64,000 nt of DNA from Desulfomonile tiedjei DSM 6799 (GCF_000266945.1 NC_018025.1:2604001-2668000); one strand, 5' to 3'. Shown: positions 7,937 through 31,893, counted from the first letter of the stretch. Notes: generated by a model from the letters alone, not told the origin. Numbers and translations are program-made.

Positions 7937-9024
7937 ATGGGGAGAAGGGAAGATTTGGGCGGAGACGAACTCAAACAAGAGCTCACCTTTCGAGATGCAT
8001 GTAAGATCTTCATAACGGGTCCCGGAATCCATGACAGTCCTGGACGATGGCGCCATGAGCTGTCACTGGCGAACATCGGAGCAAAGATTGGTGTGGACCG
8101 CCCGATAAAATCAATTTGGGTACCGGAGCTCGAGCAGTATCAGCATGATCGATTGACAGACAAAGTGAGTCCGGCAACGGTTAATAGGGAACTTACCACA
8201 CTATCCAAACTCTTTTCGGTTCTGATAAAGCATCGTCTCATTGATGCAAATCCAGTGCGATAACTGGACGGGCTATCAGTTCGTGATGGCGAACGTCAGG
8301 TCTACATCAGCTTTGGGGATGTGAAATTAATCATCAGCAAGACTCCAGAATGGTTTAGACCTTTGGCGCTGACAGCGTATTACACTGGAATGAGGCGCGG
8401 GGAAATCCTTGGACTCACGAGAAAACAAGTGAATCTTTCCAAGCGAATCATAGTGTTATCTCCCGAAACCACAAAAGAGGCTCATTGGAAACGAGTGCCA
8501 ATTCATAAGGAGTTGATTCCCATTTTAGAGGGCAGTCTGGAGAGGGGCACTCAAAAAGTAACAAGCCTTAGTAACAAGGTTTTTTGTTCTATGACAAAAA
8601 AGGATCTCGTCCACTCGAGCTCGAAACGTTCAAAAATGTTTGGCCACGTGCATGTGATGCTTTGGGGCTGAAAGAACCTTGGCCGCGATTCCATGATCTC
8701 AGACACACGTGGCGGACGAACGCACGCCGATCCGGAATGGATTTTCAAATAGCCGAGTCTATTCTTGGACATCAAAGCAAAGCACGATCAGTCAGCGATA
8801 GGTACGGCCGAATCGGTGACGAAGAACTAGTGAATGCCATAGATCAGATGACCTTCAACCATGGCGATACGGAAATTCTCGTTGCGAAAGATGTGGCGGG
8901 ACGTTCGTCAAAAAATAGTAACTCAGTAGTGACTGGAAAGCGGTCCAAAAACAAAAGGCCACATTATCATGTGACCGTGTTTCAACTATTTCAACCGGTT
9001 AGTGGTCGGGACGACTGGATTTGA
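7937..9024 (+). pseudogene. Degenerate tyrosine recombinase (int1) of element E1
   Basis: Three frames together encode a protein closely related to the intact integrase at 30476-31798. The first runs from FRDACKIFITGPG to DANPVR. An in-frame TAA at 8261-8263 stands where the relative has a serine codon. The frame then resumes through GMRRGEILGLTRKQV and KEAHWKRVPIHKEL. It shifts near 8575-8590 in a T-run, then continues with FHDLRHTWRTNARRSG and LGHQSKARSVSDRYG to the end. The N-terminal 100 residues of the relative are missing. All catalytic residues are still readable across the frames, so decay is recent. The final frame reads into the tRNA repeat and stops inside it. Confidence 0.88.
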
Positions 9025-9047
9025 ACCAGCGACCCCTGCATCCCGAA
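9003..9047 (-). repeat. attachment-site repeat 1 (tRNA-Pro 3' part)
   Basis: These 45 bases are identical to the 3' part of the tRNA-Pro gene at 31817-31861, from the CCA end through the anticodon loop. They then diverge. They mark the junction between E1 and E2. Confidence 0.92.
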
Positions 9048-9143
9048 GGCTTACAACCAGCTAATCCCAGAGCCGTCTTGCCGAGATTCCCCTGTAAAAT
9101 CAATAACCATTGAAGGCCATGGACGACCGTCACTGACCACCGA

Positions 9144-9175
9144 GGGGCCAAAAGGGGCCCAAAAAGTGCCAAAGG
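9144..9175. repeat. Probable integrase arm sites, left end of E2
   Basis: Contains GGGGCCAAAA, then GGGCCCAAAA, then GTGCCAAA in tandem, about 97 bp inside the left att repeat. A matching block lies in the end of int2 (20574-20596). Paired direct repeats flanking the core on both sides are typical of arm-type Int binding sites. Confidence 0.6.
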
Positions 9176-9239
9176 AATCTAGGTCCGGCTAGATTTCAAG
9201 TTCCATGCGTTTCAAATACAGATCAAGAAAAGTTGGCTG

Positions 9240-10103
9240 CTATTCTGGCATTCTTGACCAGCTCTTTGTTATGAGATTCTCAACTCTCCTGCACAACGAC
9301 ATTGCATTTTGGGCAACACCCTCATCCTCAAGAATATCTCCTGCCAATGCTAAATTGGCAGTCATCTGGGCAATGGAGTCCATTACTGCAGCATCAGCGT
9401 GATTAATGGCTGGGCCAAGCATAAATGTCCGTTGATCTGGATTGTCCTCCACAAGACCGCCCAAACATGCATGAAGACCATGCGTGAAAAGAGAATCAGC
9501 TTTGTAGTTTACTAGATAATATTCTTCACTGGCGTGCTCTCTACAGAGGCTGCGGACGCTGGTTCTTGCAAAATTTCGCTGGATCTCTTCGGCAATTAGT
9601 CCTCTGTCCTTCGCCAAATCTCCCAGAAGAGAATGAAAGTTTTTCCATTCTTCCAGATTTCTCGGCAGATTCAAGGCGTTGCCCCCTTTTGTATTCAGTC
9701 GTCCTAGTTCCGTCTCCATTGAAATTATTTCCTCTTGGACGCTATGAAGCATGTATCCTAAAGCTACTGCCACTGGATTAGAGCTCATGTTCAAGAGCAT
9801 CAGTCCTATTTCCATCACAGATCTCTTCAAATTCGGGACAACGTCAGCGTAACCAGAAAGGCTCAAAATCATACTTGACACAAAGAGGCGAAAAGACCTG
9901 ACGACCAGAATTGACACTACGTAATCTTGAGGTCGCTCGGAGGCATAGCTTGTGGGACGATCAACGACTTGCTGAACTATTAGATCAACTTCCGAAACAA
10001 AGTCTAGTAGTTGTTTGATCTGCGGCTCGATGGTCCTGGCTGTCTGGTTTATGCTCGACCTAAACCAATTCCAATCATATTTTTCCTCTTTGTCGAAGCC
10101 CAT
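9240..10103 (-). CDS. DUF5677-like hypothetical protein
   Basis: A 287-residue, mostly helical protein. The middle has VVRSFRLFVSSMILSLSGYA followed by PNLKRSVMEIGLMLLNM. A basic/aromatic residue, a small-residue-rich helix, and then an LxRSxxE-like segment recall the DUF5677 family of uncharacterised cytosolic proteins. A later EEYYLVNYKADSLFTHG segment fits the family's conserved Y-K-S-xH region. The assignment is tentative. It is the first gene inside the left end of E2, on the opposite strand to int2, so it is probably cargo. Some DUF5677 genes sit in defence islands, but no function can be stated. Confidence 0.5.
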   Translation of the reverse strand: MGFDKEEKYDWNWFRSSINQTARTIEPQIKQLLDFVSEVDLIVQQVVDRPTSYASERPQDYVVSILVVRSFRLFVSSMILSLSGYADVVPNLKRSVMEIGLMLLNMSSNPVAVALGYMLHSVQEEIISMETELGRLNTKGGNALNLPRNLEEWKNFHSLLGDLAKDRGLIAEEIQRNFARTSVRSLCREHASEEYYLVNYKADSLFTHGLHACLGGLVEDNPDQRTFMLGPAINHADAAVMDSIAQMTANLALAGDILEDEGVAQNAMSLCRRVENLITKSWSRMPE

Positions 10104-10229
10104 TACGGTACCTTTTTCTCGTTTATTCTTTGATGACTCGGATTACTTCGGCCTAAGTACGTCACTTTTTGGATGTACTCAATGTGTGGACACCCCTAAA
10201 AAAGTGTTAGCTTATGCAATTGGACTTCC

Positions 10230-11411
10230 TCAGGATATTTCCTCTCGATCAAGCAGAGCACAGATAGGACAAATTTTACTCCGAACCTGATGCATGACCC
10301 TGCGCTCCCATTCATGGCCTTCAGGGCAGATCCACCACACTTTCTTGTCGCTGCCGCCTTTCACATCGTGAGGAGTCAAACTTCCATTCTTAGTCGGGTG
10401 CCATTGCTTTGCTATTTGTGGGAACTTTACTGCCAAGTTGTTTAAGTCAGTCACTCTCGTTCCAAAGCAGTTGGGGCATCCCGCCCCTCCCGTACGTCTA
10501 CAAATAGGGGCTTTCCATTCGTGCTCCCTCTTACAAATCCACCACACTTTTCTTCCACTTTTTGGCGTAAAATCAAAAGGAGTGAGATTTTCATTCCTGG
10601 TCGGATGCCACTCCTTAGTCAATTCAGGATGACTTATTGCAAGATTGTGCTCTTCGGAAGGTAGTTTCCCAGCGCAATAGGGGCATCCGATTCCAGCTGC
10701 TCTGCTGGCGACCACAGCTTTCCATTCATGACCATGCTGGCATTGCCACCATACTTTCTTGTTCATGCCTGGGGTAACCATATCTGGACTGAGGTCCGTA
10801 TTTTTGGTGGGATGCCACTCCCTCGCCAATTCTGGAAACTTGACAGCGAGATTATATTCGGAACTCAGCTTCCCTCTATGCATTTGGCTGGGGTCTTTGC
10901 CAGCGCAATATGGGCAGCCAGTTCCCCTCGTCCTGTTATTAGGGCTTGCCTCCCACTCGTGACCGTTTTGGCAAATCCACCATAGCTTTCTATTGCTCTT
11001 CGGGGTCACCATCTGTGGATTCAAGGCACCATTTTTCGAGGGGTGCCACTGCTGAATAATCTCTGGAAACTTTGTCGCAAGATTATTCTCAGGCAGTGCT
11101 CTTTGGCCAGCGCAATAAGGACATCCACGCCCTTTGGTTCGGCTCCCAATCATGGCCTTCCACTCATGACCTTTTTCGCAGATCCACCATATTTTCAGGT
11201 TGCTTCCTGGCGTGACCATGCTTGGTTCCAAGTGACCATTATTAGAGGGATGCCATTGGTGAATTAGCTCCGGACATTTTGTGGCAAGATTATGGTCATT
11301 CGAAGCTTTCTGTCCAGCGCAGTACGGGCATCCAGCCCCTTTCAAACGATTCTGGATCATGGCCTTCCACTCATGACCTTTTTTCGCAGATCCACCAGAC
11401 TTTCTTCCCAC
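10230..11411 (-). CDS. C-terminal part of treble-clef-repeat protein (frameshifted from 11371-13002)
   Basis: This frame continues the upstream gene after a one-base shift. It holds the end of repeat 6 and repeats 7 to 11 of the roughly 65-residue zinc module WHPxKN...LTPxxVTPxSxxKxWWxC-xxGHEWxA...GCPYC (DUF4379 type). Each repeat has a CX-HEW-CPxC cysteine/histidine set for one zinc. The first residues before KKGHEWKAM are out of frame with the family and are not a natural start. No ribosome-binding site precedes them. I therefore treat it as the tail of one 920-residue protein. The last repeat ends ICPICALLDREEIS. Confidence 0.75.
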   Translation of the reverse strand: MGRKSGGSAKKGHEWKAMIQNRLKGAGCPYCAGQKASNDHNLATKCPELIHQWHPSNNGHLEPSMVTPGSNLKIWWICEKGHEWKAMIGSRTKGRGCPYCAGQRALPENNLATKFPEIIQQWHPSKNGALNPQMVTPKSNRKLWWICQNGHEWEASPNNRTRGTGCPYCAGKDPSQMHRGKLSSEYNLAVKFPELAREWHPTKNTDLSPDMVTPGMNKKVWWQCQHGHEWKAVVASRAAGIGCPYCAGKLPSEEHNLAISHPELTKEWHPTRNENLTPFDFTPKSGRKVWWICKREHEWKAPICRRTGGAGCPNCFGTRVTDLNNLAVKFPQIAKQWHPTKNGSLTPHDVKGGSDKKVWWICPEGHEWERRVMHQVRSKICPICALLDREEIS

Positions 11412-13002
11412 TATGTGGGGAAAACATTTCTGGGGTAAGAGGACTATTCTTGGTATAATGCCACTGTTTGGCGACCTCAGGAGTTTCCCCCAGCAGAGAC
11501 TTCTCCAGAGGCGGCCCTGGCAGATAAGAAACTATTCTCCTGAATTCTTTGGGATTAGCAAAGTCGTTTCGCCGCAAATAGTCGGCCACTTTATTTGTGT
11601 CCTGTTCATCCAAATTCAAAACTCTACTAAAGACACTAAGAAGGGATTTAACGACATCAACTTCTGGATCCCTCGTTTGTTTGTCTGACAACAGAATGTC
11701 ATTTTCAGATGATCGGGGGAGACCTTCTCCACGCACTCGGAATAATCGAATGCTCATTCCTTCGAGTTTCTCGTTCTTAAGCGCATCCTGTTCAGTTCTT
11801 TCCATATGCCAGAAGGCACCATCATACTCGACGGCTGCTCCGTACTTTGGAATGAAAATGTCGCACTCGATGCCATCAACACGGTGCCGCCACAGCACCT
11901 CGTGAAACAGGAATTTTAGTTCAGAAAAGAGTCGAATCTCGGGTAAGGACGTGTTGGGCTTACATTCAGGACAGTTTTGGCCTTTGGCCCTATTCGAGAC
12001 GCTGGATTCCCATTCGTGACCTCGACTGCATTGCCACCAAACCTTCTTGTTGCTGCGAGGGGTCACAAGACGAGGAGTCAATGCTCCATTCTTACTTGGA
12101 TGCCATTCTTTCGCCAAATCAGGTAATTTCAGGGCTAAGTTATGGTGCGAATGTGCCTGCTTCCCTATGCATTTGGCGCACTGCCTTCCTTTTGCCCTGT
12201 CACAAATAGAAGCTTTCCATTCGTGACCTTTTTGGCATTTCCACCAGACCACCTTTCCGCTTCCCGCAACAACCTGATCTGTTTTCAGCGTGCCATTCTT
12301 GGTAGGATGCCACTCAGCTGCTAATTTCGGATATAGGGTGGAGAGGTTGTTGGATATTGACACTCTTCTGTTGAGGCAAAATGGACAGTTTTCGCTATTT
12401 CTCCGCTGCGCAGGGCTGGCTTCCCATTCGTGGCCATGTCGGCACAGCCACCAATACTTCCTACTGCTAGCGGGGACAACATCAAACGGTGTGAGAATTC
12501 CATTTTTTGTGGGATGCCACTGTCTTGCTATTTTGGGATTGATCACTGCCAGATTGTATTCTGGTGACGCATGCCTGCCTAGGCAGTAGGGGCACCCGCT
12601 TCCCTTAACTCGATTACTGGGCGAAGCTTTCCATTCATGGCCTTTCTCACAAATCCACCAAATCAGCTTATTACTCTTCGGTCTCACCTGAAAAGGGGTC
12701 AATGAGCCGTTCTTTTGGGGGTGCCATTCTCGTGTGAGCATCGGAAATGTTGCACCCAAGCTCCTTTCTAGACTGACTTTTTGCCCTGCACAATAAGGAC
12801 AGCCCCTTCCGTTGGACCTCTTTGAGACAGTCGCTTCCCATTCATGTTGCTTTTCACAGATCCACCACACTTTCTGACCACTGCCATGTGTAACATCAGA
12901 TGGCTTCACGTCGCCGTTTTTTTGGGGGTGCCATTCATTAGCAAGATCGGGGTGGGTGACAGCAAGGCTGGGTTTGTCTGGCAACGTTTCTTGAGGGGAC
13001 AA
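11371..13002 (-). CDS. Treble-clef-repeat protein with embedded Vsr/DUF559-like nuclease domain
   Basis: A 543-residue reading frame. Residues 1-340 hold five DUF4379-type zinc modules (EWHPxKNG...VWWxC...GHEWxA...CPYC). Then comes a nuclease-like domain: PEIRLFSELKFLFHEVLWRH, GIECDIFIPKYGAAVEYDG, then AFWH...KN...SIRLFRVR. The E, D, E and K/R pattern resembles the PD-(D/E)XK core of very-short-patch-repair and DUF559 endonucleases. Repeat 6 starts after it and is cut at WWICEKRS by a stop. Other copies of the junction have five As in the coding strand, but here there are six (near 11382-11387), so the +1 insertion splits the gene. Large nucleases of this build are plausible defence or selfish-DNA proteins; this is inference. 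Confidence 0.8.
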   Translation of the reverse strand: MSPQETLPDKPSLAVTHPDLANEWHPQKNGDVKPSDVTHGSGQKVWWICEKQHEWEATVSKRSNGRGCPYCAGQKVSLERSLGATFPMLTREWHPQKNGSLTPFQVRPKSNKLIWWICEKGHEWKASPSNRVKGSGCPYCLGRHASPEYNLAVINPKIARQWHPTKNGILTPFDVVPASSRKYWWLCRHGHEWEASPAQRRNSENCPFCLNRRVSISNNLSTLYPKLAAEWHPTKNGTLKTDQVVAGSGKVVWWKCQKGHEWKASICDRAKGRQCAKCIGKQAHSHHNLALKLPDLAKEWHPSKNGALTPRLVTPRSNKKVWWQCSRGHEWESSVSNRAKGQNCPECKPNTSLPEIRLFSELKFLFHEVLWRHRVDGIECDIFIPKYGAAVEYDGAFWHMERTEQDALKNEKLEGMSIRLFRVRGEGLPRSSENDILLSDKQTRDPEVDVVKSLLSVFSRVLNLDEQDTNKVADYLRRNDFANPKEFRRIVSYLPGPPLEKSLLGETPEVAKQWHYTKNSPLTPEMFSPHSGKKVWWICEKRS

Positions 13003-13655
13003 ATTCCACGACCTCGAATTAGAATGAATTTAGAATTCGGTTTCTTGCCTTTCATGTAATATTGCTCTTGCTTGTCCAATCTTCAAGCAAAAAGTTCCTC
13101 GATAGAGCAGTCAATTTGGGTTCCAATTCACTTGCCTCTATAATCATTCGTGTTCCGCACGAACTTGCCGTACGTACGGCATCTTCTCCGAGGCATGCTC
13201 AAAAATTCCTAAACTGGTCAACAATAGCAATCTGCTGAGCGAGTCAGTTGTATATTAATGCAATCAAGTAATCCGCAACTGTTAACTGGACCAATTGTCT
13301 CGGCAATCAGGGCCTGATTTTTGTTTGGGTTCTCTCACATAATCTTTTCCAAGATGGATTTTCCTCATTTTTTCCAGGTTGATCATTAACAGGATTGGAC
13401 TCCCAAGATATTTTTTTTGCCTGTACCAGTTGACTAAACGGGATAGCAGACACAGATGTAAAAAGTCACCGTAAGGTGGCTGTTGGCCATCCACGCGGAG
13501 GTGTGCGTCCCTATACCCTGTGGCGGTGGGGTCCCTTGGGGGGCAGTGGAAATATAATACACCGTAACAAATTTGTTGTAACAGCCGTCTGGTCTGGCAA
13601 ATGCCCGCATCAGGCATAGGAAAGGAGTTATATTAAGCTGAAAGGAACGTGAGCC
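13003..13655. other. Intergenic with palindrome copy 1 and possible structured RNA
   Basis: No convincing gene. It contains the 16-bp palindrome at 13166-13181. A GC-rich stretch at about 13465-13560 has several short complementary segments (for example CACC-GTAA-GGTG) and might be a structured leader or small RNA. The gene at 13656 has an AAAGGAAC site 9 nt upstream. Confidence 0.35.
13166..13181. repeat. E2 palindrome, copy 1
   Basis: TGCCGTACGTACGGCA, a perfect 16-bp palindrome. It lies 164 bp upstream of the treble-clef-repeat gene (minus) and 475 bp upstream of the gene at 13656 (plus). Confidence 0.9.
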
Positions 13656-14417
13656 ATGGCAAAAAAAGCTAAAGAGTCAAACTCTGCGAAGACCAAAAAT
13701 AAGAGCACCGATGTATTGTCGGACGACCAGATCAAGAAAATAGTTGGCGAGATCAACAAGCTGGCTATAGATACAGTTGAACGTGGTCAAATGGATATTG
13801 GCGATTTGGTGCTTAGTAAGGTCTTTCAGGGAAGCTTGGATGAAGCGACTTCAAAAAGCCCATATAAGAACAAGACGATGAAGTCTATTATAGATCATGA
13901 CAATCTGCGGGTTAATCGCAGACGATTGGGTGAGTGGGTGAGAGCCGCTTTTCTACGCAAGCAACTCTTAGCGAAAGAAGTGGATTGCTCCAATCTGAGC
14001 TATTCACACTTTGCCGTTTTGTTGCAGGTTGAAAACGAAGCAACGCGGGTTAAATTGGCCAACAAGGCAAATAAAAAGAAAGCCTCGGCCCGTAAACTTG
14101 CTGACGAAGTAGGCAAGCTTCACCGCGTGGTGCATTCCGAAGAAGATGGCAAGGCCCTTCTGAGGCTTCTGGGTAATCCCGAGGCCCTGATGAAGGACGA
14201 GAAAGCCAAAAAGACCCTTGAGAATCAGGAGGATCTGGAAAAATTGCCATTTGATATCCGCATGCTCATTGCGAAGCGGGCGGAAGAGGTGGCCAAACAC
14301 ATGATTGATTCCATGAACCTTCTGAAGGTGGCCAAGAAGAATATCGCTCTCATCGAACTAAGAGAAACCGATGTCATAGACATCGAGGCAACGAATTTGG
14401 TGGCTGTAAAAGCGTAA
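13656..14417 (+). CDS. Possible ParB/KorB-like DNA-binding protein
   Basis: A 253-residue, highly charged, helical protein with a lysine-rich N-terminus. Residues 75-145 read LRVNRRRLGEWVRAAFLRKQ, then SNLSYSHFAVLLQVENEATR and ANKKKASARKLADEVGKLH. The SYSHxxxLLxVxxxxxRxxLAxKA...SxRxLxxEV layout resembles the helical DNA-binding part of ParB/KorB-type proteins and the N-terminal domain of YhcG. The match is weak. It is flanked on both sides by copies of the E2 palindrome (13166 and 14513), which makes it the best candidate for the palindrome-binding protein; that is inference. A hairpin follows at 14430. Confidence 0.5.
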   Translation: MAKKAKESNSAKTKNKSTDVLSDDQIKKIVGEINKLAIDTVERGQMDIGDLVLSKVFQGSLDEATSKSPYKNKTMKSIIDHDNLRVNRRRLGEWVRAAFLRKQLLAKEVDCSNLSYSHFAVLLQVENEATRVKLANKANKKKASARKLADEVGKLHRVVHSEEDGKALLRLLGNPEALMKDEKAKKTLENQEDLEKLPFDIRMLIAKRAEEVAKHMIDSMNLLKVAKKNIALIELRETDVIDIEATNLVAVKA

Positions 14418-14429
14418 TTTCAAATATCC

Positions 14430-14454
14430 GTGCCCTCGACCCTCCCGAGGGCAC
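14430..14454 (+). terminator. Hairpin after the ParB-like gene
   Basis: GTGCCCTCG pairs with CGAGGGCAC (9 bp, 7-nt loop), 12 bases after the stop codon. The following bases are GTTACAAG, so there is no strong U-tract. It may be a weak or Rho-assisted terminator. Confidence 0.5.
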
Positions 14455-14512
14455 GTTACAAGACAACCTCCCAAAGGCACCGAATAAACGACAATCAGAA
14501 GCAAACCGAAGA

Positions 14513-14528
14513 TGCCGTACGTACGGCA
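14513..14528. repeat. E2 palindrome, copy 2
   Basis: A perfect TGCCGTACGTACGGCA palindrome in the convergent gap between the ParB-like gene and the minus-strand recombination operon. Confidence 0.9.
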
Positions 14529-14577
14529 TGTTAAAAAAATAACTCTGATATGGACCGCTGTATACCATCGGAGTTTA

Positions 14578-14879
14578 TCATGGGTAGACTTTTGTGAGTC
14601 CCCTTGCTGAAGCTGATGCCGTTCGCATTAGCGTAATAGCATCTGAATAACGAAAAGATGTAGTATCCATGCGGATAATATCCTTAGCTTTCTTATCGGC
14701 CGTAATTAGAAGCGCTCCTGGAAATAGCAGAAAAGCAAGGCCCAGCCTTGATTCTTGTAAAGGGGGGTGGGCCCGCCTACAAAGACTCCCATCTGCGGAC
14801 GTTCGGACATGGCCGAAAAGGCTGGAATATAGGTGTCTGGGCGGGAAATAAAAGACCTTTCGGTCTTTAAGAATTGCAT
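14578..14879 (-). pseudogene. Possible small gene with frameshift
   Basis: Downstream of the Cas4-like gene two overlapping frames look coding in succession. One is MQFLKTERSFISRPDTYIPA to PLYKNQGWALLFCYFQ. The other is ALLITADKKAKDIIRMDTTS to ARGLTKVY. Joined near 14720-14750 they would give about 100 residues. There is no clear ribosome-binding site and I know no family. It may be the last gene of the recombination operon, broken by a frameshift, or a chance frame. Confidence 0.3.
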
Positions 14880-14898
14880 GTAATCGCATATCACATAA

Positions 14899-15660
14899 CT
14901 ACCATTCTCGGCAATGATCTGCCCATGCACATTGAGCACAATGCCAGTCGTCGCGGGGAAAGAATGCGTGCCGTTCAATAGCGGACCAGACCTGTTTGAC
15001 AAGCTTTACGAATCTGTCTCTTTCCAGATGAGTGCGGGTAGTCTCGTATCGCACCATCTCAGGGCTCTTGGTCTTTGTGAGCACATCCAGTCGCATCGTA
15101 AGGCTGTCAGGATCGAACCCCAGAGCTTCAGCTCCTAAAGAATAGGCCGTGAGCTGGAGATTGCTGTGGACATTATTGTCTCCCAGCTTTTTCGCTGCTG
15201 TCTTCAGGTCCGCGACCGTGATCATCCCATCTGGCGATTGCTCAATTAGGTCAATGTAGCCTTGAAATGGTGGCACGCCCTCAATGTTGAACTCAAAGAA
15301 CTCCTCCACGCCCAGCACCAAAGTATCTGGGCTGACATTCTCGTGAAACACGTCAATAAGTTGCTTTGCTTTCTGAAGCAGAGTTTTCTCATTATCGCCG
15401 TTGAAATACTTGATGTTTTCTGCATCTTGCCATGTTGCTCGATACACGTCATGCATCTGGTCAGGCTTCAGAGCTTCTCCTTCGAGGCGGGACTGATAAT
15501 AGGCACCTACCGCTTCATGTAAAGCGGAACCAAAGGCCAATGCAACGGATGTAAATGCCGGCGGGATGAGTTCCACGTATTGCAGTCTGTATTTCAATGG
15601 ACAGCTCAGATAGGTGTTGAGCTGGGAATATGAGAAGTGCGTAATAGGTCCTTCTGGCAT
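14899..15660 (-). CDS. Cas4/RecB-like PD-(D/E)XK nuclease with Fe-S cysteines
   Basis: A 253-residue protein; the ATG at 15660 has AAAGGAG 10 nt upstream. It has every mark of the Cas4/AddB-type exonuclease family: FSYSQLNTYLSCPLKYRL with C20, a GSALHEA helix with H48, GYIDLI with D137, VADLK with D151 and K153, and the QLTAY motif with Q169. A C-terminal C241-x2-C244-x5-C250 cluster completes a 4Fe-4S site with C20. It should resect DNA ends. It lies in an operon behind the annealing-like protein, suggesting a phage-Red-like exonuclease plus annealase pair. No CRISPR array or cas1 is present, so a CRISPR role is not indicated. Confidence 0.88.
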   Translation of the reverse strand: MPEGPITHFSYSQLNTYLSCPLKYRLQYVELIPPAFTSVALAFGSALHEAVGAYYQSRLEGEALKPDQMHDVYRATWQDAENIKYFNGDNEKTLLQKAKQLIDVFHENVSPDTLVLGVEEFFEFNIEGVPPFQGYIDLIEQSPDGMITVADLKTAAKKLGDNNVHSNLQLTAYSLGAEALGFDPDSLTMRLDVLTKTKSPEMVRYETTRTHLERDRFVKLVKQVWSAIERHAFFPRDDWHCAQCAWADHCREW

Positions 15661-15740
15661 CGCGCTATTCTCCTTTCTCGGGAACAAGACGCAGTTGTCC
15701 TGTTCCCCGTTAAATAGTGGATTTTTTGGTTGTGAGGTTA

Positions 15741-16439: not shown

Positions 16440-16452
16440 GTTGGAACTCCTT

Positions 16453-16548
16453 TCATGTGGTGTATTTCCATTTCTGAATAAGTTTAAGGATCTCCGCGGT
16501 CGCCTGGACGACAATTAAAGCGATTATGGCTATTTCAGATAGCTTCAT
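16453..16548 (-). CDS. 31-residue small hydrophobic protein
   Basis: Reads MKLSEIAIIALIVVQATAEI and then LKLIQKWKYTT. The GGAGG site lies 4-5 nt before the ATG. One hydrophobic helix with a basic tail suggests a single-pass membrane microprotein. Its end lies just before the ribosome-binding site of the annealing-like gene, so it is translated in the same operon. No family is known to me. Confidence 0.55.
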   Translation of the reverse strand: MKLSEIAIIALIVVQATAEILKLIQKWKYTT

Positions 16549-16556
16549 GCTGCCTC

Positions 16557-17664: not shown

Positions 17665-17695
17665 GGAAGACCTGTCTGGGTGCGTGGCTTCAACT

Positions 17696-18645: not shown

Positions 18646-18699
18646 TATAGTTGATCATGTACCTACAAATAGGACTATTGATATGGTACATATATGAGA

Positions 18700-20645: not shown

Positions 20646-20661
20646 TTTAATTTAGCTTTTC

Positions 20662-21415: not shown

Positions 21416-21424
21416 TTCGACACC

Positions 21425-22072: not shown

Positions 22073-22136
22073 AATGTATGCCTTTCCTGAGATATCCGTA
22101 TTCAATTATACCAAAATGAGGTTGTGCTGGTTGTCT

Positions 22137-22942: not shown

Positions 22943-22973
22943 TAAGGGATGCACGTTGAAAGGGGTAGAGACA

Positions 22974-23657: not shown

Positions 23658-23722
23658 CAGATACGACCATAACGGACTTGGGGGAACTCCCCCCAGGTTC
23701 CCTATTATAAGGAAGGTACAAC

Positions 23723-24298: not shown

Positions 24299-24305
24299 AA
24301 AAATA

Positions 24306-24332
24306 TTGACCTCTGGTTTGAACGCGTATACT
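24306..24332 (+). promoter_or_regulatory. Possible promoter before the XRE regulator
   Basis: TTGACC at 24306-24311 and TATACT at 24327-24332, with a short 15-bp spacer. It lies about 80 bp before the regulator gene. Confidence 0.4.
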
Positions 24333-24413
24333 CCTACCCCCCAAGGGGAAGGTTTACATGCTTTGGCATGTAATAAAAAGTGACTCTGGAAGGTACCTGC
24401 ACTTTTGGAGGGA

Positions 24414-24653
24414 ATGAAGGTTCCGTTGACTCGCTTAGAATGCCTCAGACGTTTGGCTGGTTTATCGCAGAAAGAATTAGCGCAAAAAATCAATTATGGC
24501 TCCACGACGCCAATTTCATTAGTGGAGCGCGAGCGTAAGACCTCGCAAAGAGTTGTTACTGGCAAGTTTAAGAAATTGTTAGAGCAGTTTTTCGATGTTC
24601 CTTTTCCCAAATTGGCTGAAAAACTCGATTTATCGAAACTCTTGACCCAATAG
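24414..24653 (+). CDS. XRE-family helix-turn-helix regulator
   Basis: A 79-residue protein with a Cro/CI-type helix-turn-helix (LTRLECLRRLAGLSQKELAQ, then STTPISLVERERKTSQR). A GGAGG lies only 2 nt before the ATG at 24414, which is too close. A TTG at 24423 is spaced better (11 nt) and would give MTRLECLRR, the usual XRE opening. The start is therefore uncertain by 3 codons. It is a likely repressor of the replication gene downstream. Confidence 0.75.
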   Translation: MKVPLTRLECLRRLAGLSQKELAQKINYGSTTPISLVERERKTSQRVVTGKFKKLLEQFFDVPFPKLAEKLDLSKLLTQ

Positions 24654-24932
24654 TTTTACTGTAATTCGTCGTATCTCTCCCCCTGTTTCCAGGCGTGTGT
24701 GACAAGCTACGTGCTGTGTATGACATGCCGGAAAAACTGAAACCCATCTGGTGAGGATGGGTTCCTGGAGAGATTCCGATGGAAAAAATGATGTGATGAC
24801 CATTTATTTATTCAAAAACTCCCCATTTATCAAGCATTTTTGTCGAATTCGACACGAAAAAAATCGCGTCAAGGTGTGTACGTACTGGTGCGACTTCAAT
24901 TCATTTTCAATTTTTTACCTGGAGGATTACCG
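24654..24932. promoter_or_regulatory. Leader region of the replication gene
   Basis: Contains a TGTATGACA nonamer at 24717-24725 and a hairpin AACCCATC/GATGGGTT at 24741-24763. After it comes a mini-ORF (ATG at 24779, MEKMM, stop) whose ribosome-binding site and start closely resemble those of the real gene at 24933. It may serve as a translational control leader. Confidence 0.5.
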
Positions 24933-27725
24933 ATGGAATCTGCTGGCGCTATTGTTACGACAGAAATTAAGAGGCTGGAATCTATTGTCTCGCCAGACGT
25001 GAGCTTGGTAAGTCAAAGCCACGCGAGAGACATAATTACAAATCACCACAATTACAGGTTCCCAGATATATTTGAGAAATACTTCCCTGACTGTTCAAAA
25101 AACCAGACGTGTCCAAAATGTGGGGTTGAGGGATACCAAATAAACGAGACTCAGGGGATTTGCGCCAATGAGGACTGTAAAGAGTCTTTAGACGTAATGG
25201 ACCTGAGAATGATGCGTCACAATCTAACTGAAAGAACCTGCACAAAGACTGACATTTACGCTCTGTACGCTGCTGAAATTGGTTTTTGTGTTGAGCGCAG
25301 ACCTTTGACCTTAGAGCAGCGAACCTACACAAAAGCTCTCCTGAGTTCAATTCTCAGGTATCTGAGGCTTGGCTGGTCACTCTTTTTATGCTGGTGGATT
25401 GTGCCAGAGGAAACAGAGAAGGGGATTCAATACGTCTGCGCATGCTCGAAATGGAAACGTAAAAGCGCGAATACGAAATGTAGTCAGGGAAAACATCCTT
25501 TAGGGAGTCTCTACCCAGAAGGGTTCAAGGACGCCACAAAATCGCGTGTGGAGCTGTTTCAGCACGTCTCTAAAAATCCGATGGCGAATCTCGCAGTGGC
25601 GACAGGTAGCGTCTCAGGAATTTGGGTGCTGGACGTGGATTTATCCAAAGGTGAAGCGATTGGCCAAGAGAGTCTTGATAAGCTCATTCAGCAATATGGG
25701 GAGCTTCCTGACACTGTTGAGGGTATTACTGGTTCAAGTGGACGCCATTTGCTGTTTAAGTGGCCAAAAGGCAAGGTTATCAAATGCAGCAGTAATCAGG
25801 TTGCTCCTAAGCTCGATGTCCGCGCGGAAGGTGGATACATCGTCACAGCTCCGTCACTTCATGAAAGTGGATCCGCGTACCGCTGGAAAGAAGGACACGC
25901 ACCAGGAGAAATCGAGATTGCAGAGGCTCCTAATTGGCTGATTGACCTTTGTGTTCAGGCTGGGGAGAAACAGGAACGTGAGAGCCAAAAGGAGCCAAAA
26001 CGCGAGAAGCAGAACCACGCTCATTCTTCACGTCATGACAGCGACCCCAGACTAGAAACATTAAAGAAGTTAGACCCTTATCGCGTGATAACTGCATGTG
26101 GAAAACAGGCGTATGGCAAGAAAACGAGCGTCCGCGATGAAAAAGACCCCAGCGTGCAAATTAATGACGATTGGTCCCCCCCTGCATTCTACGACCATGG
26201 GACCAAAGAAACTTTCGATATTATTGGTTTTGTGGAGCGCTCTCTAGGCCTCAGTTTTATTGAAGCGTGCAATTTTTTGTGTGACCTGGAAGGATTGCCG
26301 CGATTCCAATTTGGTTCAAAAGATTATCAGAGGAAGCAGGAAGGGAGTTTCTACAATGAAGGTGGAGTTAAGCGAGAGCCAAACAAGGTCCATATTTTCC
26401 CTGATTACGAGACAGCATGCCTATTCGCTGACGTTTGCAGCACTGCACTAATTGGTGGTTATGGCGCTGCAACAGGCAAAGAGAGGCTTCCAGGGAGTAT
26501 GGGGGACGATTCGCGCGAGGTGTTTATCTTCACTGACGCTGCCAATGATATCCAGGTTAAAGGCTCCCAGAAGCTCGCTAATGGTATTTGTCGATGTAAT
26601 AAAGAATTGAAACTAGTCGATTTGTCCCCTTTTTTGGGGGGTATCTCCCTGCAATCGTATTGCGCGAAACACGACCTTGACCACGTGAAGACCCTCTTGA
26701 GAGGCGTTTCCCAAAAAACAGAGCTTTTCGAGCCTCCGATTTTACAGACCAATACTGGCCACCTGATTCAAGTCAGTAATTATGCAGACCTTGCCAAAAA
26801 GGTCTTTCCAAAAATCAACTGGATAGTCCCCAGGATTATCATGGAAAGCAATCTCATCCTATTCGCAGCGCCACCTAAAGGTGGAAAGTCACTATTCTGC
26901 ACCAATGTTTCGCTTGCTGTTTCGTCTGGTGGCCTAGCGCTGGGAGAACTCCAGTGTATCCAAGGCAAAACGCTGTATTTGGCTCTGGAAGACTCTGAAC
27001 GTCGATTGCAGGCACGTCTGATAACTATGAATGAGGGTAAGCCTCTGCCTGCTGATGCCTTGTACACCCGCGACTGGCCAGCATTTCCAGAAGGAATTGA
27101 GATGCTTCAGCGTTGGCTGGACAAAAATCAGGATTGCAGGCTGGTCATAATCGACACAATTCAGAAATTGAAGCCTCTTTCTGACAAATCGCGAAGCGAA
27201 TATGCGAACGATTATGCTTTGCTTGGTCCGCTACACCGATTGGCACTGGATCGCAATTTGGCAATCATTGCAGTGCATCACACTCGAAAACAGCAGGCTG
27301 GCAACGATTCAGACCCTTTCGAGCGTCCTTTAGGCTCCCAAGCGCAGATGGGAGTATGCGACAGCACAATCATTCTTGAGCGCTCTTTTGGGACAAATGA
27401 GGGGACGCTATACATCAAAGGACGCGACATTGAGGAATCGACTTTTACCCTCGAATTCGACGCAGCAACGCTGAACTGGCGATATGTTGGGATTGCGTCA
27501 GACGTGAAGCTGTCCAAGGAATCGAAAGAAATTCTGGAAATATTGCGTAAGGCTAAAGGCGTGCCTCTGTCTGCAAGAGATTTCGCTGAAAAGCTCGATG
27601 TGAGCAGGCGTACAATCCAGAAACGCTTGGAGCGCTTGGTTGATAGGGAAGAGATTGTCAAAGCTGCTGGCCAGGAAGGAAAGTATCTGCTGTCGCCTGA
27701 CGAGAGATTCAAGTGTCCATTTTAA
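24933..27725 (+). CDS. Primase-polymerase/RecA-type helicase replication protein
   Basis: A 930-residue protein; the ATG at 24933 has GGAGG 7-8 nt upstream. Domain order: a zinc ribbon (C60, C63, C77, C82); a primase-polymerase domain (about 150-340) with D234 and D236 in VLDVDL, SSGRH with H272, and D295; a degenerate TOPRIM-like middle (480-600, FIFTDAANDI); a RecA-like RepA/DnaB-type ATPase with Walker A APPKGGKS (646-653), Walker B VIID (738-741) and VHHTRK; and a C-terminal winged helix (about 850-930). It should initiate and prime replication of E3 in circular form. The iteron region at 27745-27990 directly follows. Confidence 0.88.
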   Translation: MESAGAIVTTEIKRLESIVSPDVSLVSQSHARDIITNHHNYRFPDIFEKYFPDCSKNQTCPKCGVEGYQINETQGICANEDCKESLDVMDLRMMRHNLTERTCTKTDIYALYAAEIGFCVERRPLTLEQRTYTKALLSSILRYLRLGWSLFLCWWIVPEETEKGIQYVCACSKWKRKSANTKCSQGKHPLGSLYPEGFKDATKSRVELFQHVSKNPMANLAVATGSVSGIWVLDVDLSKGEAIGQESLDKLIQQYGELPDTVEGITGSSGRHLLFKWPKGKVIKCSSNQVAPKLDVRAEGGYIVTAPSLHESGSAYRWKEGHAPGEIEIAEAPNWLIDLCVQAGEKQERESQKEPKREKQNHAHSSRHDSDPRLETLKKLDPYRVITACGKQAYGKKTSVRDEKDPSVQINDDWSPPAFYDHGTKETFDIIGFVERSLGLSFIEACNFLCDLEGLPRFQFGSKDYQRKQEGSFYNEGGVKREPNKVHIFPDYETACLFADVCSTALIGGYGAATGKERLPGSMGDDSREVFIFTDAANDIQVKGSQKLANGICRCNKELKLVDLSPFLGGISLQSYCAKHDLDHVKTLLRGVSQKTELFEPPILQTNTGHLIQVSNYADLAKKVFPKINWIVPRIIMESNLILFAAPPKGGKSLFCTNVSLAVSSGGLALGELQCIQGKTLYLALEDSERRLQARLITMNEGKPLPADALYTRDWPAFPEGIEMLQRWLDKNQDCRLVIIDTIQKLKPLSDKSRSEYANDYALLGPLHRLALDRNLAIIAVHHTRKQQAGNDSDPFERPLGSQAQMGVCDSTIILERSFGTNEGTLYIKGRDIEESTFTLEFDAATLNWRYVGIASDVKLSKESKEILEILRKAKGVPLSARDFAEKLDVSRRTIQKRLERLVDREEIVKAAGQEGKYLLSPDERFKCPF

Positions 27726-27744
27726 TCAGAAATTCCTTAGATAC

Positions 27745-27990
27745 CTGTCGCCATGTCGCTATATATAGCAAAGTGTAATAATAATAATAATATAGAGGTA
27801 TATAAGTGACTACACCCCCCCCCTTCACCCCCTGTCGCTCCTGTCGCCACATGCATAATTACTGGCGACAGGGGCGACACCCAGCGACACCCCCCCCTGT
27901 CGCACAGAAGTAATGGATATGACAGGGGATATATACCATTGCGACAGTTTTACGTATATATGGCGACAATGAGTTTTTTCGACTGTCGCT
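27745..27990. repeat. GTCGC iteron array, candidate replication origin of E3
   Basis: About ten copies of CTGTCGC or its complement GCGACAG (sometimes with one change) lie here: 27745, 27753, 27832, 27841, 27864, 27872, 27882, 27897, 27941, 27961 and 27983. They surround an AT-rich tract at 27772-27805 (ATAATAATAATA and TATATA). Iterons plus an AT-rich segment beside a Rep gene are typical of plasmid origins. Confidence 0.65.
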
Positions 27991-28018
27991 ACGAACGAAC
28001 GAACGAGACGAACGAACG
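27991..28018. repeat. CGAA microsatellite
   Basis: Near-perfect tandem ACGA/CGAA units, about 28 bases, at the end of the iteron array. It may be a slippage tract. Confidence 0.75.
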
Positions 28019-28093
28019 CATTTCTGAAATTGGTTGACTGACGACAGCCTGAATTTCAGGCGAACGATAATTGATACATGGAGGAATTGTGCT

Positions 28094-28642
28094 ATGAAAG
28101 GCTTGATTGGCGAGGAGCAGACGTATGGACCCTGGAAACTCTCACGCGAGACAGTGGACCGCTGGCCATTGCTCGACAAATGCTACGCACAATCGATTAA
28201 CACCGACCTGTCCCGAGCAATCGAGACGGGATTTCTGGTTGATACGGTATCTGGACGGAGACGGTACCGGGATGGAATCCGGGGGATTGTTGCGCATGAG
28301 AGATATTATGGCTGGGCATGCTCCGTATTAATCCCGTTCGTATCTTTCGTCCCGAGACGGAAATTGACGTCCGTTCAAATCGATCTGTTACCATCGTGCC
28401 AAACATTTCCGGAAACGGTCCTGGACAAGCTCGAAACGCTTCTGATGCAGTATCGGGTACCGCGCGGTGATTACCTGATAGGACAGCGAGTGTCATTCGT
28501 GGACGCATTGCGATGCGATGCTGACGAGCTTGGCGCGCGGCTGGTCGAATTCGTGCAGGCCAATGCGAGATACAGAGAGCCTGAACGAACGGAATTTGAG
28601 CAAAGGCTGGGAGTTGTCAGGCCAGCACCATTTGCGTGCTAA
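28094..28642 (+). CDS. Hypothetical protein of E3
   Basis: A 182-residue protein; the ATG at 28094 has GGAGG 8-9 nt upstream (the longer frame from 28034 has no such site). It contains TYGPWKLSRETVDRWPLLDK and GFLVDTVSGRRRYRDGIRG, and in the second half RVSFVDALRCDADELGARLV. There is no signal peptide. I do not recognise the family. It follows the putative origin. Confidence 0.6.
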   Translation: MKGLIGEEQTYGPWKLSRETVDRWPLLDKCYAQSINTDLSRAIETGFLVDTVSGRRRYRDGIRGIVAHERYYGWACSVLIPFVSFVPRRKLTSVQIDLLPSCQTFPETVLDKLETLLMQYRVPRGDYLIGQRVSFVDALRCDADELGARLVEFVQANARYREPERTEFEQRLGVVRPAPFAC

Positions 28643-28653
28643 GAGTGCTCACG

Positions 28654-28753
28654 TTCAGCATAGTGAAGACTGGCATACCCCCACCCCCAGTAATCGAGGG
28701 TTGCGAGAGGTACGCGAGCGGGTGAGACAGTAACGCTAATTCACTATGCTGAA
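28654..28753. repeat. 14-bp inverted repeat flanking a GC-rich 72-bp segment
   Basis: TTCAGCATAGTGAA at 28654-28667 and its exact reverse complement TTCACTATGCTGAA at 28740-28753. The inside is GC-rich with further short repeats. It could be a structured RNA, a nick site or a recombination target. Confidence 0.65.
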
Positions 28754-28930
28754 TATCCTGACACATAACGAAAATAAAGGCTTAATCATTTCGAGCACTT
28801 GCGCGTCTTATAAAATCATGCGTGTGCAGGGAATAAATGATTGACTGGAGTCACTGCCATGATATGACAGGGGAAGGACACGTATACGTCAAGCATTTTA
28901 ATGATTTGGTTCATTTTGGAGGGATTGACG

Positions 28931-29713
28931 ATGATGAATTTGAGTGGTGCGAGACAGAGTAGTTTATTTGCTGAGGAAACGAGGGTTGAGCAGGTTGAGC
29001 AGGTTGTTACTGCGCGGAAGGTTGCCAGGAAGACGTTTAATCGACCTAACGAAAATATCGAATGGACTGCATACTCTTGGAATCCAGTGACAGGGTGTCG
29101 ATATAATTGCAGCTATTGCTATGCCAGAGGAATAGCGCATCGCTTCAATGGTGAGGCTGGATTTACGCCACAATTCCACGAGGACAGGTTGAACATGCCA
29201 TACGACACGCCAATTCCACGAGGTGATGAGGCTGGAACCAGAAACGTGTTCGTCTGTTCGATGGCAGATTTATTTGGAGACTGGGTACCATGCGAATGGA
29301 TTAACGCGATTTTGGACGTATGCAGGCGAACGCCACAAAGGACATACCTATTTCTGACGAAGAATCCCAAGGGGTATTTGGAGTTCAGCTTTCCGGAGAA
29401 CTCATGGTTAGGTACGACCATTGACAGGCAATCGAGGGTTGAGCAAGCAATTGAGGCATTCGGTCAATTGGAGCATGGCACGAAATTCGTCTCGTGCGAG
29501 CCCATGCTTGAGGAATTGAGTTTCGAGAGTTTTCCATTCCATTGGTGCATCATTGGTGGAATGTCTCGCACTGGTAAGCCACCTATGCAGCCAGAATGGA
29601 GCTGGGTTGAATCTCTGATGACGACTGCCAGGGAAGCAGGAGCCAAGATATATCACAAGCCAAATTTGATTGTGCCTGCTGGAAGCGAGAGGTTGAAAGA
29701 GTATCCGGTATAA
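28931..29713 (+). CDS. DUF5131 (phage Gp37/Gp68-type) protein with radical-SAM-like cysteines
   Basis: A 260-residue protein; the ATG at 28931 has GGAGG 9 nt upstream. It shows EWTAYSWNPVTGCRYNCSYC with C56, C60 and C63 (a CX3CX2C cluster), then VFVCSMADLFGDWVP, TYLFLTKNP and GGMSRTGKPPMQPEW. This is the DUF5131/Gp37-Gp68 family, frequent in phages and mobile elements. The cysteine spacing suggests an iron-sulfur enzyme of the radical-SAM superfamily. Its substrate is unknown. It is probably cargo. Confidence 0.85.
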   Translation: MMNLSGARQSSLFAEETRVEQVEQVVTARKVARKTFNRPNENIEWTAYSWNPVTGCRYNCSYCYARGIAHRFNGEAGFTPQFHEDRLNMPYDTPIPRGDEAGTRNVFVCSMADLFGDWVPCEWINAILDVCRRTPQRTYLFLTKNPKGYLEFSFPENSWLGTTIDRQSRVEQAIEAFGQLEHGTKFVSCEPMLEELSFESFPFHWCIIGGMSRTGKPPMQPEWSWVESLMTTAREAGAKIYHKPNLIVPAGSERLKEYPV

Positions 29714-30013
29714 AATTCTATTGACACGTTGCGAGAGTTTCGACTACTCAGTGGAGCAAATCGAATCGGTAAAGTTTTGAAAGCGAACAAATTGCATGCT
29801 GTCAGTTCCCAGAATTGGCAGAGAACGGGATTTCCCATAGTATTGACGTCAATTGATTGCGATGCGCGTAATTGGATATCCGGTCTGTGTAGCTTCCCTG
29901 CTGCACCCTATCGTCTCACGAGAAAGGCACGCGGCTTGACGCGCTGTCTTGAGGCAAGTCGCACCTGTTAAGGTGTCCCCTGCATCGCGACCAGGGATAA
30001 CGCGGAGGTGACC
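29714..30013. other. Intergenic region before xis3
   Basis: A 300-bp gap between DUF5131 and the excisionase gene. A TTGACA-like hexamer occurs near 29721, but no convincing -10 follows at standard distance. No gene is recognised. Confidence 0.4.
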
Positions 30014-30020
30014 ATGTATA

Positions 30021-30482
30021 GTGAATCACCTGGACAGAGAAGAGAGCGTAACAGAAGGACCATTTGAAGAAACTTTACAGCCAGTAAAGCAAGACTCCCC
30101 CATCCCTACCATTTTACGACCCCAGCAGGTTGCTGAACTCCTGCAAATGTCCACGAAGACCGTTCATGCGTTGTGTCGAGCTGGGAGATTGTCCTATTTC
30201 TGGATTAATGCCAAAGAGAGGCGTTTCACTGCTGACGATGTACACGCTTATTTAAGAGCGTGCCATGTGGAGTCGAGCGCTGTTCCTGCTGTTCGTGCTG
30301 GACGTGCGCGAGCTCAACAGAGGCGAATTGACGCGACCCCTGCGCAAGATCCTGTTGACACGTCCTGTCATAAACTCTTACCCTCTGACTCGAAAGGGGG
30401 TGACAGACAGGCGAGACGCAAGACGAATCATAGGGGAAACACTGATAGAGCGAGACTCAAAGAGGAGTTTCGTTCATGGTAA
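30021..30482 (+). CDS. Excisionase-like HTH protein (xis3)
   Basis: A 153-residue protein with a GTG start. Residues 30-85 (LRPQQVAELLQMSTKTVHAL, then AGRLSYFWINAKERRFTADD) form an excisionase/MerR-like helix-turn-helix. A long basic, low-complexity tail follows. The GGAGGTG site fits an ATG at 30014 better, which is out of frame and would give a 17-residue peptide, so initiation is uncertain. The stop overlaps int3 by 7 bases, the same arrangement as xis2-int2 in E2. Confidence 0.7.
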   Translation: MNHLDREESVTEGPFEETLQPVKQDSPIPTILRPQQVAELLQMSTKTVHALCRAGRLSYFWINAKERRFTADDVHAYLRACHVESSAVPAVRAGRARAQQRRIDATPAQDPVDTSCHKLLPSDSKGGDRQARRKTNHRGNTDRARLKEEFRSW

Positions 30483-31798
30483 TCATCAAAACGAGCAAAG
30501 GTCAGAGTGAGTACGCTCTTTTCTTCTATCCCTTCACAATACGACAGCTTGAAGGGATGGGATTAGAGGCGAAGAAAAAGAAAGTATTGTTGAGGCTTCC
30601 AGCATTAAAGTGTCCTTCTGCCAGAGGTGAGAAAGAGGCGAAGAGGATTGAAGCATTGATTTCCAATGCGTGCAAAAACTGGAATTTCAGTGAGCTGGAC
30701 AGCGCGAGTCGTGAAGCGTGCGGTACAATGTTCAGGTCATTGGGAATCGAAGTACCGGCATCTTTAGGGATTGGACCAGAGCCAAGGCGCGAGTTTACGT
30801 TGAAAGATGCAAGCAAGCTATTTCTGACAGATCCAGAAATAAGAGATTCGCCTGGACGCTGGAGACACGAGGCGTCATTACTGAACCTTGTACCAAGGCT
30901 TGGCGCGAATACCCCAGTGAAGTTGATTAAGGTGGCGCACCTGAAACAGTATCAGAACGATAGACTGCGCGAGCGTAAACAGGCTTCGACAATCAATCGT
31001 GAGCTGGCCACCTTATCGAAGCTGTTCAGGATTCTGGTCGAGAATGACGTGGTGGACGTAAACCCTGTTCGTTCATTAAAGGCACTGTCTACACGGTCAG
31101 GCGAGCGCCAAGTGTATCTATCGTTCGCAGATGTGCAGCTAATCGCCTCGCATTGTCCAAAATGGTATCAGGATCTTATTTGGACTGCGTATTACACAGG
31201 CGCGAGACGTGGCGAGCTTTTAGCACTGACTCGAAAACAGGTGGACTTGGCCAAGCGCATTATCGTGATTTCACCAATGGCGACAAAAGAGGCGCACTGG
31301 AAAAGAATTCCCATTCATCAAGATTTACTCCCCACCATTGAACCATTGGTCAGGTTTGCACCTGCTGACACTGACAACCTTTTTCTGCTGAGAGATAGCA
31401 AGGGAGCACGTCCTATTGGTCTTGAGACTTTCAAAAACTGCTGGGATCGTGCATTGACTGCATTGGAGAAGAGTGGAGAGTGGAAACATGCACGTCCACG
31501 ATTCCACGATTTACGTCATACGTGGCGAACCAATGCGCGAAGGTCTGGTATCGATTTCCAGATAGCGGAAACGATTTTAGGCCACCAAAATAAGGCTAGG
31601 AGCGTTTCTGACAGGTATGGACGCATCAGTGATAAAGAACTACTCGAAGCTATAGAGAAGCTCATAGTGGAAAATGGTGAAACTGAAGTCTTGTTAGCAC
31701 GCGAGATTACAGGCAAAAATGGTCATGGGAGTAATATGGGAGTAACAGTTGAGCATCAGGGAAAGAAAAAAGCCACCCAGTTGGGTGGCCTGTCTTAA
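30476..31798 (+). CDS. Tyrosine recombinase (int3) of E3
   Basis: A 440-residue integrase, intact. Residues 1-100 are a variable N-terminus, 105-195 the SAM-like core-binding domain and 215-400 the catalytic domain. Catalytic residues: R244 (TGARRGE), K271, H344 and R347 (HDLRHTW), H370 (LGH) and nucleophile Y381 (SDRY). It is closely related to the int1 pseudogene and more distantly to int2. The last codons contain the arm-type repeat. The gene ends 18 bp before the tRNA, so integrase and attachment site move together. Confidence 0.94.
   Translation: MVIIKTSKGQSEYALFFYPFTIRQLEGMGLEAKKKKVLLRLPALKCPSARGEKEAKRIEALISNACKNWNFSELDSASREACGTMFRSLGIEVPASLGIGPEPRREFTLKDASKLFLTDPEIRDSPGRWRHEASLLNLVPRLGANTPVKLIKVAHLKQYQNDRLRERKQASTINRELATLSKLFRILVENDVVDVNPVRSLKALSTRSGERQVYLSFADVQLIASHCPKWYQDLIWTAYYTGARRGELLALTRKQVDLAKRIIVISPMATKEAHWKRIPIHQDLLPTIEPLVRFAPADTDNLFLLRDSKGARPIGLETFKNCWDRALTALEKSGEWKHARPRFHDLRHTWRTNARRSGIDFQIAETILGHQNKARSVSDRYGRISDKELLEAIEKLIVENGETEVLLAREITGKNGHGSNMGVTVEHQGKKKATQLGGLS
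31727..31746. repeat. Probable integrase arm sites, right end of E3
   Basis: GGGAGTAATATGGGAGTAAC within the last codons of int3, 70 bp before the tRNA. Identical to 20846-20865. Confidence 0.7.
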
Positions 31799-31816
31799 TG
31801 ATTTCAAGTAGTTACA

Positions 31817-31893
31817 TGGTCGGGACGACTGGATTTGAACCAGCGACCCCTGCATCCCGAATGCAGTGCTCTACCAGGCTGAGCCACGTCCCG
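31817..31893 (-). tRNA. tRNA-Pro (anticodon CGG)
   Basis: A 77-nt gene with CCA encoded. The acceptor stem CGGGACG pairs with CGTCCCG. The anticodon stem CTGCA/TGCAG encloses the loop TTCGGGA, giving anticodon CGG. The T loop GGTTCAAATCC is standard. It is the integration target of E1-E3; the common core ATCCCGAA (31854-31861) lies over the anticodon loop. Confidence 0.97.

Follow-up and report, generated by a model that had tools for sequence, protein, structure and literature searches.

A probable two-sided pile of integrative elements at a single tRNA-Pro gene of Desulfomonile tiedjei

Some mobile elements carry transfer RNA (tRNA) genes with them and are known as tycheposons. Among genomic islands found at tRNA genes, the Islander collection holds 3919 entries, 3760 with 3' and 159 with 5' fragments of the target, and includes 125 tandems of two or more islands and four of three or more (PMC4383910). 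The accretion of elements at one target, together with integrase-less cis-mobilizable elements (CIMEs), has been reviewed (PMC5704250); Dehalococcoides harbours many tandem islands at ssrA (PMC3146451); and cases in which a 5'-type element provides its target's promoter are reported to be rare in bacteria (PMC8371274). Here we describe a stretch of 64,000 nucleotides from Desulfomonile tiedjei DSM 6799 (hereafter the window; positions 2,604,001-2,668,000 of the 6.50-Mb chromosome C1, in an assembly that also includes a 26.9-kb contig, C2), in which a single tRNA-Pro(CGG) gene appears to hold a two-sided pile of integrative elements: E1, E2 and E3 on its 3' side and, mirrored on its 5' side, an element that we call X. 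What can be read directly in the DNA are the cores, the arm sites and their spacing, the displaced tRNA halves and the relatives at other tRNA genes; we put the probability of this reading at roughly 0.87.

Positions below are those of the window, with elements, protein genes and arm sites on the plus strand and tRNA parts and -35 boxes on the minus strand. The sole tRNA gene of the window, identified by ARAGORN with Rfam in agreement, is tRNA-Pro(CGG) at 31817-31893, which is also the only complete copy. A 45-mer from its 3' half, TGGTCGGGACGACTGGATTTGAACCAGCGACCCCTGCATCCCGAA, is present at 31817-31861 as the proximal core of E3 and recurs without change at 9003-9047, where the right end of E1 meets the left end of E2, and at 20662-20706, where the right end of E2 meets the left end of E3; at this second copy the identity extends to 49 bases (20662-20710). 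The core runs from the encoded CCA end to the anticodon loop, and each of the three copies is directly preceded by an integrase gene, broken in the case of int1 and intact for int2 and int3. A search of the whole genome, allowing up to three mismatches, returned these three places and no other, and its backwards control returned no match in the whole genome; on these two grounds a chance origin of the cores is excluded. Fragments of tRNA genes are common in genomes, and the repeats might be taken for chance or paralogous ones. No result here favours this idea, and exactly three 45-bp copies in 6.5 Mb, with zero control matches and an integrase beside each at fixed spacing, refute it: its probability is negligible.

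A preliminary description of this DNA had already reported the three identical 45-base copies, the tyrosine recombinase gene before each of them, with int1 broken, and a core reaching into the anticodon loop; the genome search and the finding of PF00589 in int2 and int3 bear this out. It had also counted three elements, of which E2 and E3 are indeed bounded but E1 is a truncated remnant, three cores bounding only two elements. Its proposal that each newcomer takes over the complete tRNA gene needs qualification, as E1, E2 and E3 each supply the 3' half only, and its account of the locus overlooked both a displaced 5' half (34722-34760) and element X on the 5' side.

We propose to regard E1, E2 and E3 as distinct elements belonging to one tyrosine-integrase group, in which each integrase would recognize its own tandem arm sites inside both element ends. 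The element circle would cross over with the chromosome within the anticodon loop (ATCCCGAA), probably the site of exchange, and would bring a copy of the tRNA 3' half, so that each insertion would rebuild the tRNA and shift the previous 3' half leftward. E1 would have been the first to enter and would since have decayed, losing its left end; E2 and E3 remain intact. X would have recombined in the same loop as a mirror image, bringing a 5' half with its promoter and moving the earlier 5' half, along with its own promoter, to the right. The tRNA-Pro(CGG) gene as it now stands would consequently be a hybrid, composed of a 3' half from E3 and a 5' half with promoter from X.

Arm sites were detected by comparing the inner flanks of each core pair and testing the score against 2000 shuffles, none of which (0/2000) attained the observed score for E2, for E3 or for X, each of which has such a pair inside either end. 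E2 (9048-20661, 11.6 kb) bears a 24-bp repeat with one mismatch, AAAAGGGGCC(C/A)AAAAAGTGCCAAA, present as AAAAGGGGCCCAAAAAGTGCCAAA at 9150-9173 and as AAAAGGGGCCAAAAAAGTGCCAAA at 20570-20593, inside the 3' end of int2. E3 (20707-31816, 11.1 kb) bears a 21-bp repeat, TGGGAGTAATATGGGAGTAAC, identical at its two ends (20845-20865 and 31726-31746, the latter inside the 3' end of int3). The two repeats differ from each other and each is peculiar to its own element; each is a tandem pair with units of about 10 nt, the arrangement expected for integrase arm sites. Pairs of this kind recur in the nine bounded elements of this genome (two at tRNA-Pro, four at tRNA-Val and one each at tRNA-Asp, tRNA-Ala and tRNA-Glu), with a sequence that differs in most of them and a position that, again in most, falls at about +100 to +126 relative to the far core and at -92 to -69 relative to the near one. 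Integrase-adjacent cores in relatives also bear arm pairs.

The third member of the 3' side is incomplete. E1 has right arm sites, TAGTAACTCAGTAGTGACT, at 8916-8934, and its integrase gene int1 (7824-9024) survives as open reading frame (ORF) pieces at 7937-8263, 8321-8671 and 8584-9024, interrupted within 7937-9024 by three stop codons (one TAG and two TAA). These pieces are 80-88% identical to an intact integrase adjoining tRNA-Val, whose element has E1-type arms. Neither a fourth core nor a partner of the arm TAGTAACTCAGTAGTGACT was found in the 40 kb upstream, and E1 is therefore a truncated remnant, with one end where a tDNA island has both. The broken integrase and the missing left end support E1 as the oldest member of the stack.

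In a sister genome of the same genus (G001), an integrase 86% identical to Int2 at the amino acid level lies directly at tRNA-Pro with an identical right arm sequence; collinear E2-like genes are found on another contig, and E3 DNA was not found in that genome. At tRNA-Val, another integrase shows 75% identity to Int2 and belongs to an element with the E2 arm sequence, and at tRNA-Glu the body of E3 recurs (blocks of 76-82% nucleotide identity) beside a different integrase (41% amino acid identity). Because no E3 was found in G001, and because integrase kin of E1 and E2 are found at tRNA-Val and the E3 body at tRNA-Glu, the elements can be said to come and go singly. This bears on the alternative that E2 and E3, and perhaps E1 as well, entered together and travel as a single composite whose internal cores are old scars. 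Accretion and cis-mobilization of tandem elements are documented (PMC5704250), and with all cores identical an end-to-end excision is possible in principle; a composite is nonetheless very unlikely given the E2-type integrase directly at tRNA-Pro in G001, where E2-like genes are on a separate contig and E3 DNA was not found, the E3 body found alone at tRNA-Glu, and the matched arm pair proper to each element.

The elements might also be real and their order different, E2 or E3 having entered at a junction core and not at the tRNA gene. The core at 20662 has kept almost all of the anticodon stem-loop (CTGCATCCCGAATGCA) and could perhaps act as a target, but the core at 9003 has no second half-site after ATCCCGAA and would thus be a poor one; the decay of int1 and the absent left end fit E1 as the oldest member, and in G001 the tRNA is occupied by an E2-type integrase in the absence of E3. 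We consider such an order unlikely. The serial entry of independent integrase-bearing elements at one tRNA, as put forward in the preliminary description, is strongly supported by the element-specific arms, by G001 and by the relatives at tRNA-Val and tRNA-Glu. Its argument from integrase decay holds for E1 as the oldest but does not extend to E2 before E3, an order suggested by position and by one sister genome. The comparison with related genomes that it called for produced G001, with an E2-type integrase at tRNA-Pro and no E3, but no clean empty site; neither a relative carrying the whole block as one unit nor stray repeats turned up, the cores being found nowhere else in the genome and each beside an integrase.

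In a tree of 17 integrases the target tRNA is not clustered, with six changes for Pro against a shuffled mean of 5.8, and shows no agreement with the phylogeny; integrases of one group use different tRNA genes. The tRNA-Pro gene has also left its usual neighbour: tyrS lies close to tRNA-Pro in four relatives and is 2 Mb away in this genome.

Element X (31862-34721, 2.9 kb) lies on the other side of the tRNA. It has a GC content of 57%, versus 46-47% for E1-E3, and carries MacA-like and decayed MacB-like efflux genes. Immediately beyond it, at 34722-34760, lies a displaced former tRNA-Pro 5' half that starts at the anticodon loop, with an exact run of 22 bp, 95% identity over 40 bp and an E value of 2.5e-10 in the whole genome; together with the former promoter it spans 34722-34798. 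The -35 box of the present promoter, TTGACA, is within X at 31925-31930, that of the displaced promoter, again TTGACA, is at 34792-34797, and both are offset by 31 nt from the tRNA 5' end. Arm pairs are located by the tRNA (31959-31978, AGCTAACACCCAGCTAACAG) and at the far end of X (34602-34619, AGCTAACACAGCTAACAG), 66-85 and 103-120 bp from the two tRNA halves, in a mirror image of the 3'-side elements. X thus displays the features of a 5'-type island without integrase (CIME-like): a displaced 5' fragment upstream in the same orientation, both attachment (att) ends, and arm pairs.

Matches to the X arm pair were searched for in 18 genomes, which gave five places and one control match. Two of the five are the ends of X. 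A third is in G001, where 79 bp are 84% identical to the far end of X and are followed by a tRNA-Ala 5' half with its promoter. The remaining two are by tRNA-Ala 3' cores, one in G004, a genome of another genus, and one in the present genome, 103 bp from a displaced core. In the latter case the element, M1 (2.9 kb, on the 3' side of tRNA-Ala, with AbiE genes and no integrase), has ends that align with those of X in mirror orientation. Since the arms of X and G001 are at 5' halves and those of M1 and G004 at tRNA-Ala 3' cores, members of one arm family border tRNA genes on either side. Among the integrase flanks searched in this genome, none has the exact X arms.

These observations also weigh on the possibility that X is no integrase product, the 5' half at 34722 having arisen by homologous recombination with foreign DNA or by local duplication. 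X encodes no integrase, it carries MacAB-like remnants, and a 5' half offers homology for recombination. On the other hand, the displaced half begins at the anticodon loop, the matching arm pairs are 66-85 and 103-120 bp from the cores as in the other elements seen in a mirror, and the same arm family is present at a tRNA-Ala 5' half (G001) and at tRNA-Ala 3' halves (this genome and G004), which together make such an origin quite unlikely. An X-like element at the tRNA-Pro of G004 or of a third genus, represented by G009, is not supported: no displaced 5' halves were found in either, although G004 has one arm-like motif.

Several points weigh against a two-sided pile built by integrases. X has no integrase gene, and the nearest match to its arms beside an integrase, TGTTAACTGGGTGTTAACT in G009, agrees at 17 of 19 positions; an integrase of the G009 kind may have moved X. 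The intact tRNA-Ala of G001, where the other end of its X-like element is expected, is absent from the assembled contigs. Neither a circular form nor a clean empty site was seen, the tRNA-Pro loci of relatives differing on both sides. That E2 inserted before E3 is a likelihood drawn from position and from G001, and present mobility of any of these elements can at most be presumed. Lastly, the promoter identities come from ungapped comparisons of 41 nt. In these, the promoter now in use shares 80% and 78% identity with its counterparts in the two other genera (G004 and G009) but 29% with that of same-genus G001, to which the displaced promoter is 51% identical. The values themselves speak for the model: they fit a horizontal arrival of the present promoter with X, and suggest a foreign origin of the X promoter.

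If its 3' half derives from E3 and its 5' half and promoter from X, the tRNA-Pro gene is a chimera, whose 5' half and promoter are probably not native either. We lean, with some reserve, towards a broader reading, in which one att architecture works in both polarities and mobile DNA has replaced both halves of tRNA-Pro and its promoter, leaving no native part and handing expression to the element. On this same reading, the near symmetry of the anticodon stem-loop would allow elements with related arms to insert at the 3' as well as the 5' side of a tRNA gene. As in tycheposons, tRNA genes would move with the elements, with the difference that members here carry half a tRNA gene.

The locus resembles several described systems in part. 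As with Islander tDNA islands, each member combines a tRNA and displaced fragment with its own integrase, belongs to the class with anticodon-loop crossover and obeys the same tandem rule (PMC4383910). Compared with the tandems of that collection, tRNA-Pro here has two bounded elements and a remnant and tRNA-Val four bounded elements and one more, and the part of the source drawn on does not describe fragments on both sides of one tRNA (PMC4383910). Accretion of integrative and conjugative elements (ICEs), integrative and mobilizable elements (IMEs) and CIMEs likewise involves stacking at one target, decay of older members and integrase-less members with both att sites, as in X and M1 (PMC5704250); unlike these, members here are also found on the 5' side of the target, and no conjugation or mobilization family is present among the scanned ORFs of E2 and E3. 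Dehalococcoides also stacks numerous tandem islands, a part of them lacking an integration module, at one RNA gene (PMC3146451), but they depend on the serine recombinase DsiB at ssrA, whereas tyrosine integrases at several tRNA genes are involved here. In contrast with 5'-half integrators such as the archaeal pTN3 (PMC8371274) and with the 159 5'-type islands of Islander (PMC4383910), related arms occur here on 5'-side and 3'-side elements, and X occupies its tRNA jointly with a 3' stack. Both tandem arrays at tRNA genes and islands of the 5' type are thus on record; what is unusual is the two-sided occupancy and the use of one arm family in both polarities. A narrow literature search brought up no account of a tRNA gene flanked by elements on its two sides.

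On this one chromosome, five tRNA genes hold nine bounded elements whose att layout is nearly constant and whose arm pairs can be read from the sequence. Two questions thereby become open to experiment: how an integrase comes to use a new target tRNA or polarity, and whether a host tRNA gene present in one copy can have its promoter captured by mobile elements. Moreover, displaced 5' fragments and arm pairs expose integrase-less elements that island finders requiring an integrase discard.

As to their class, E2 and E3 have what defines tDNA islands: an intact tRNA, a displaced fragment that lies on the proper side of it and points the same way, a tyrosine integrase of their own, and arms inside both ends. 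Among their scanned ORFs there is no relaxase, type IV secretion or mobilization family that would indicate an ICE, and no terminase, capsid or tail gene that would indicate a prophage, the lone phage-type hit being one weak 34-residue match to a head protease. The Prim-Pol/AAA protein and excisionase-like genes of the two elements fit a phage satellite, for which no helper is known, and the E3 primase has a weak match only, at 23%, in viral contigs.

E2 encodes DUF5677 and DUF4379 proteins, a PD-(D/E)XK exonuclease, a DnaD-like protein, an excisionase-like HTH_17 protein (19069-19383) and the intact tyrosine integrase int2 (19344-20645, 433 amino acids, PF00589). In all four members of the int2 group, among them int2 itself, RDLR stands in place of the usual HxxR, a substitution of Arg for the catalytic His in a subgroup that appears intact. 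Two overlapping ORFs at 10230-13002, rich in DUF4379 zinc-finger repeats, are possibly one gene split by a frameshift. The 26.9-kb contig C2, which is plasmid-like and carries ParA, BrxC/D-like ATPases with a helicase, AbiEii, a family A DNA polymerase and an integrase, shares the nuclease region of E2 at 68-74%.

E3 encodes a serine recombinase of the resolvase type (22923-23657), a Prim-Pol/AAA_25 replication protein (24840-27725), a DUF5131 protein (28901-29713), a probable excisionase-like HTH protein read from the sequence (30021-30482) and the intact tyrosine integrase int3 (30476-31798, 440 amino acids, PF00589). The tRNA-Glu element with the E3 body, at chromosome positions 6025287-6036477, has its own integrase and its own arms and is an integration-module swap; at its far end are two further tRNA-Glu cores, 0.7 kb apart.

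Other stacks are present on the same chromosome. The one at tRNA-Val(CAC), at 3961523-4070341 (109 kb), is larger than that at tRNA-Pro: it has five integrases and five identical cores of 48-49 bp, which delimit four bounded elements (23.6, 21.9, 44.8 and 18.2 kb), each with its own arm pair, and one element without a far core. At tRNA-Asp (5903002-5921400), two integrases and two cores delimit one bounded element of 16.9 kb. The tRNA-Ala(CGC) stack (2728541-2749800) comprises M1, with AbiEi/AbiEii-type genes, beside an 18-kb integrase-bearing element, and a further partial core is found about 1 kb beyond. In G001, contig C506 has two SIR2-domain genes (ThsA-like in PADLOC) and a GAF-domain gene on the element side of the X-like end, possibly defence cargo. 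At tRNA-Pro itself, two cores with integrases are present in G006, of another genus, and two cores 1.1 kb apart in G004 (contig C48, 65149 and 66283). Second tRNA-Pro matches in G019 and G023 were rejected as displaced halves, the former being a different tRNA, tRNA-Pro(GGG), and the latter contig-end copies. Back in the window, at 1946-3372, a HigB-like toxin adjoins an HTH/IrrE-peptidase protein that matches PD-Lambda-2_B in PADLOC.

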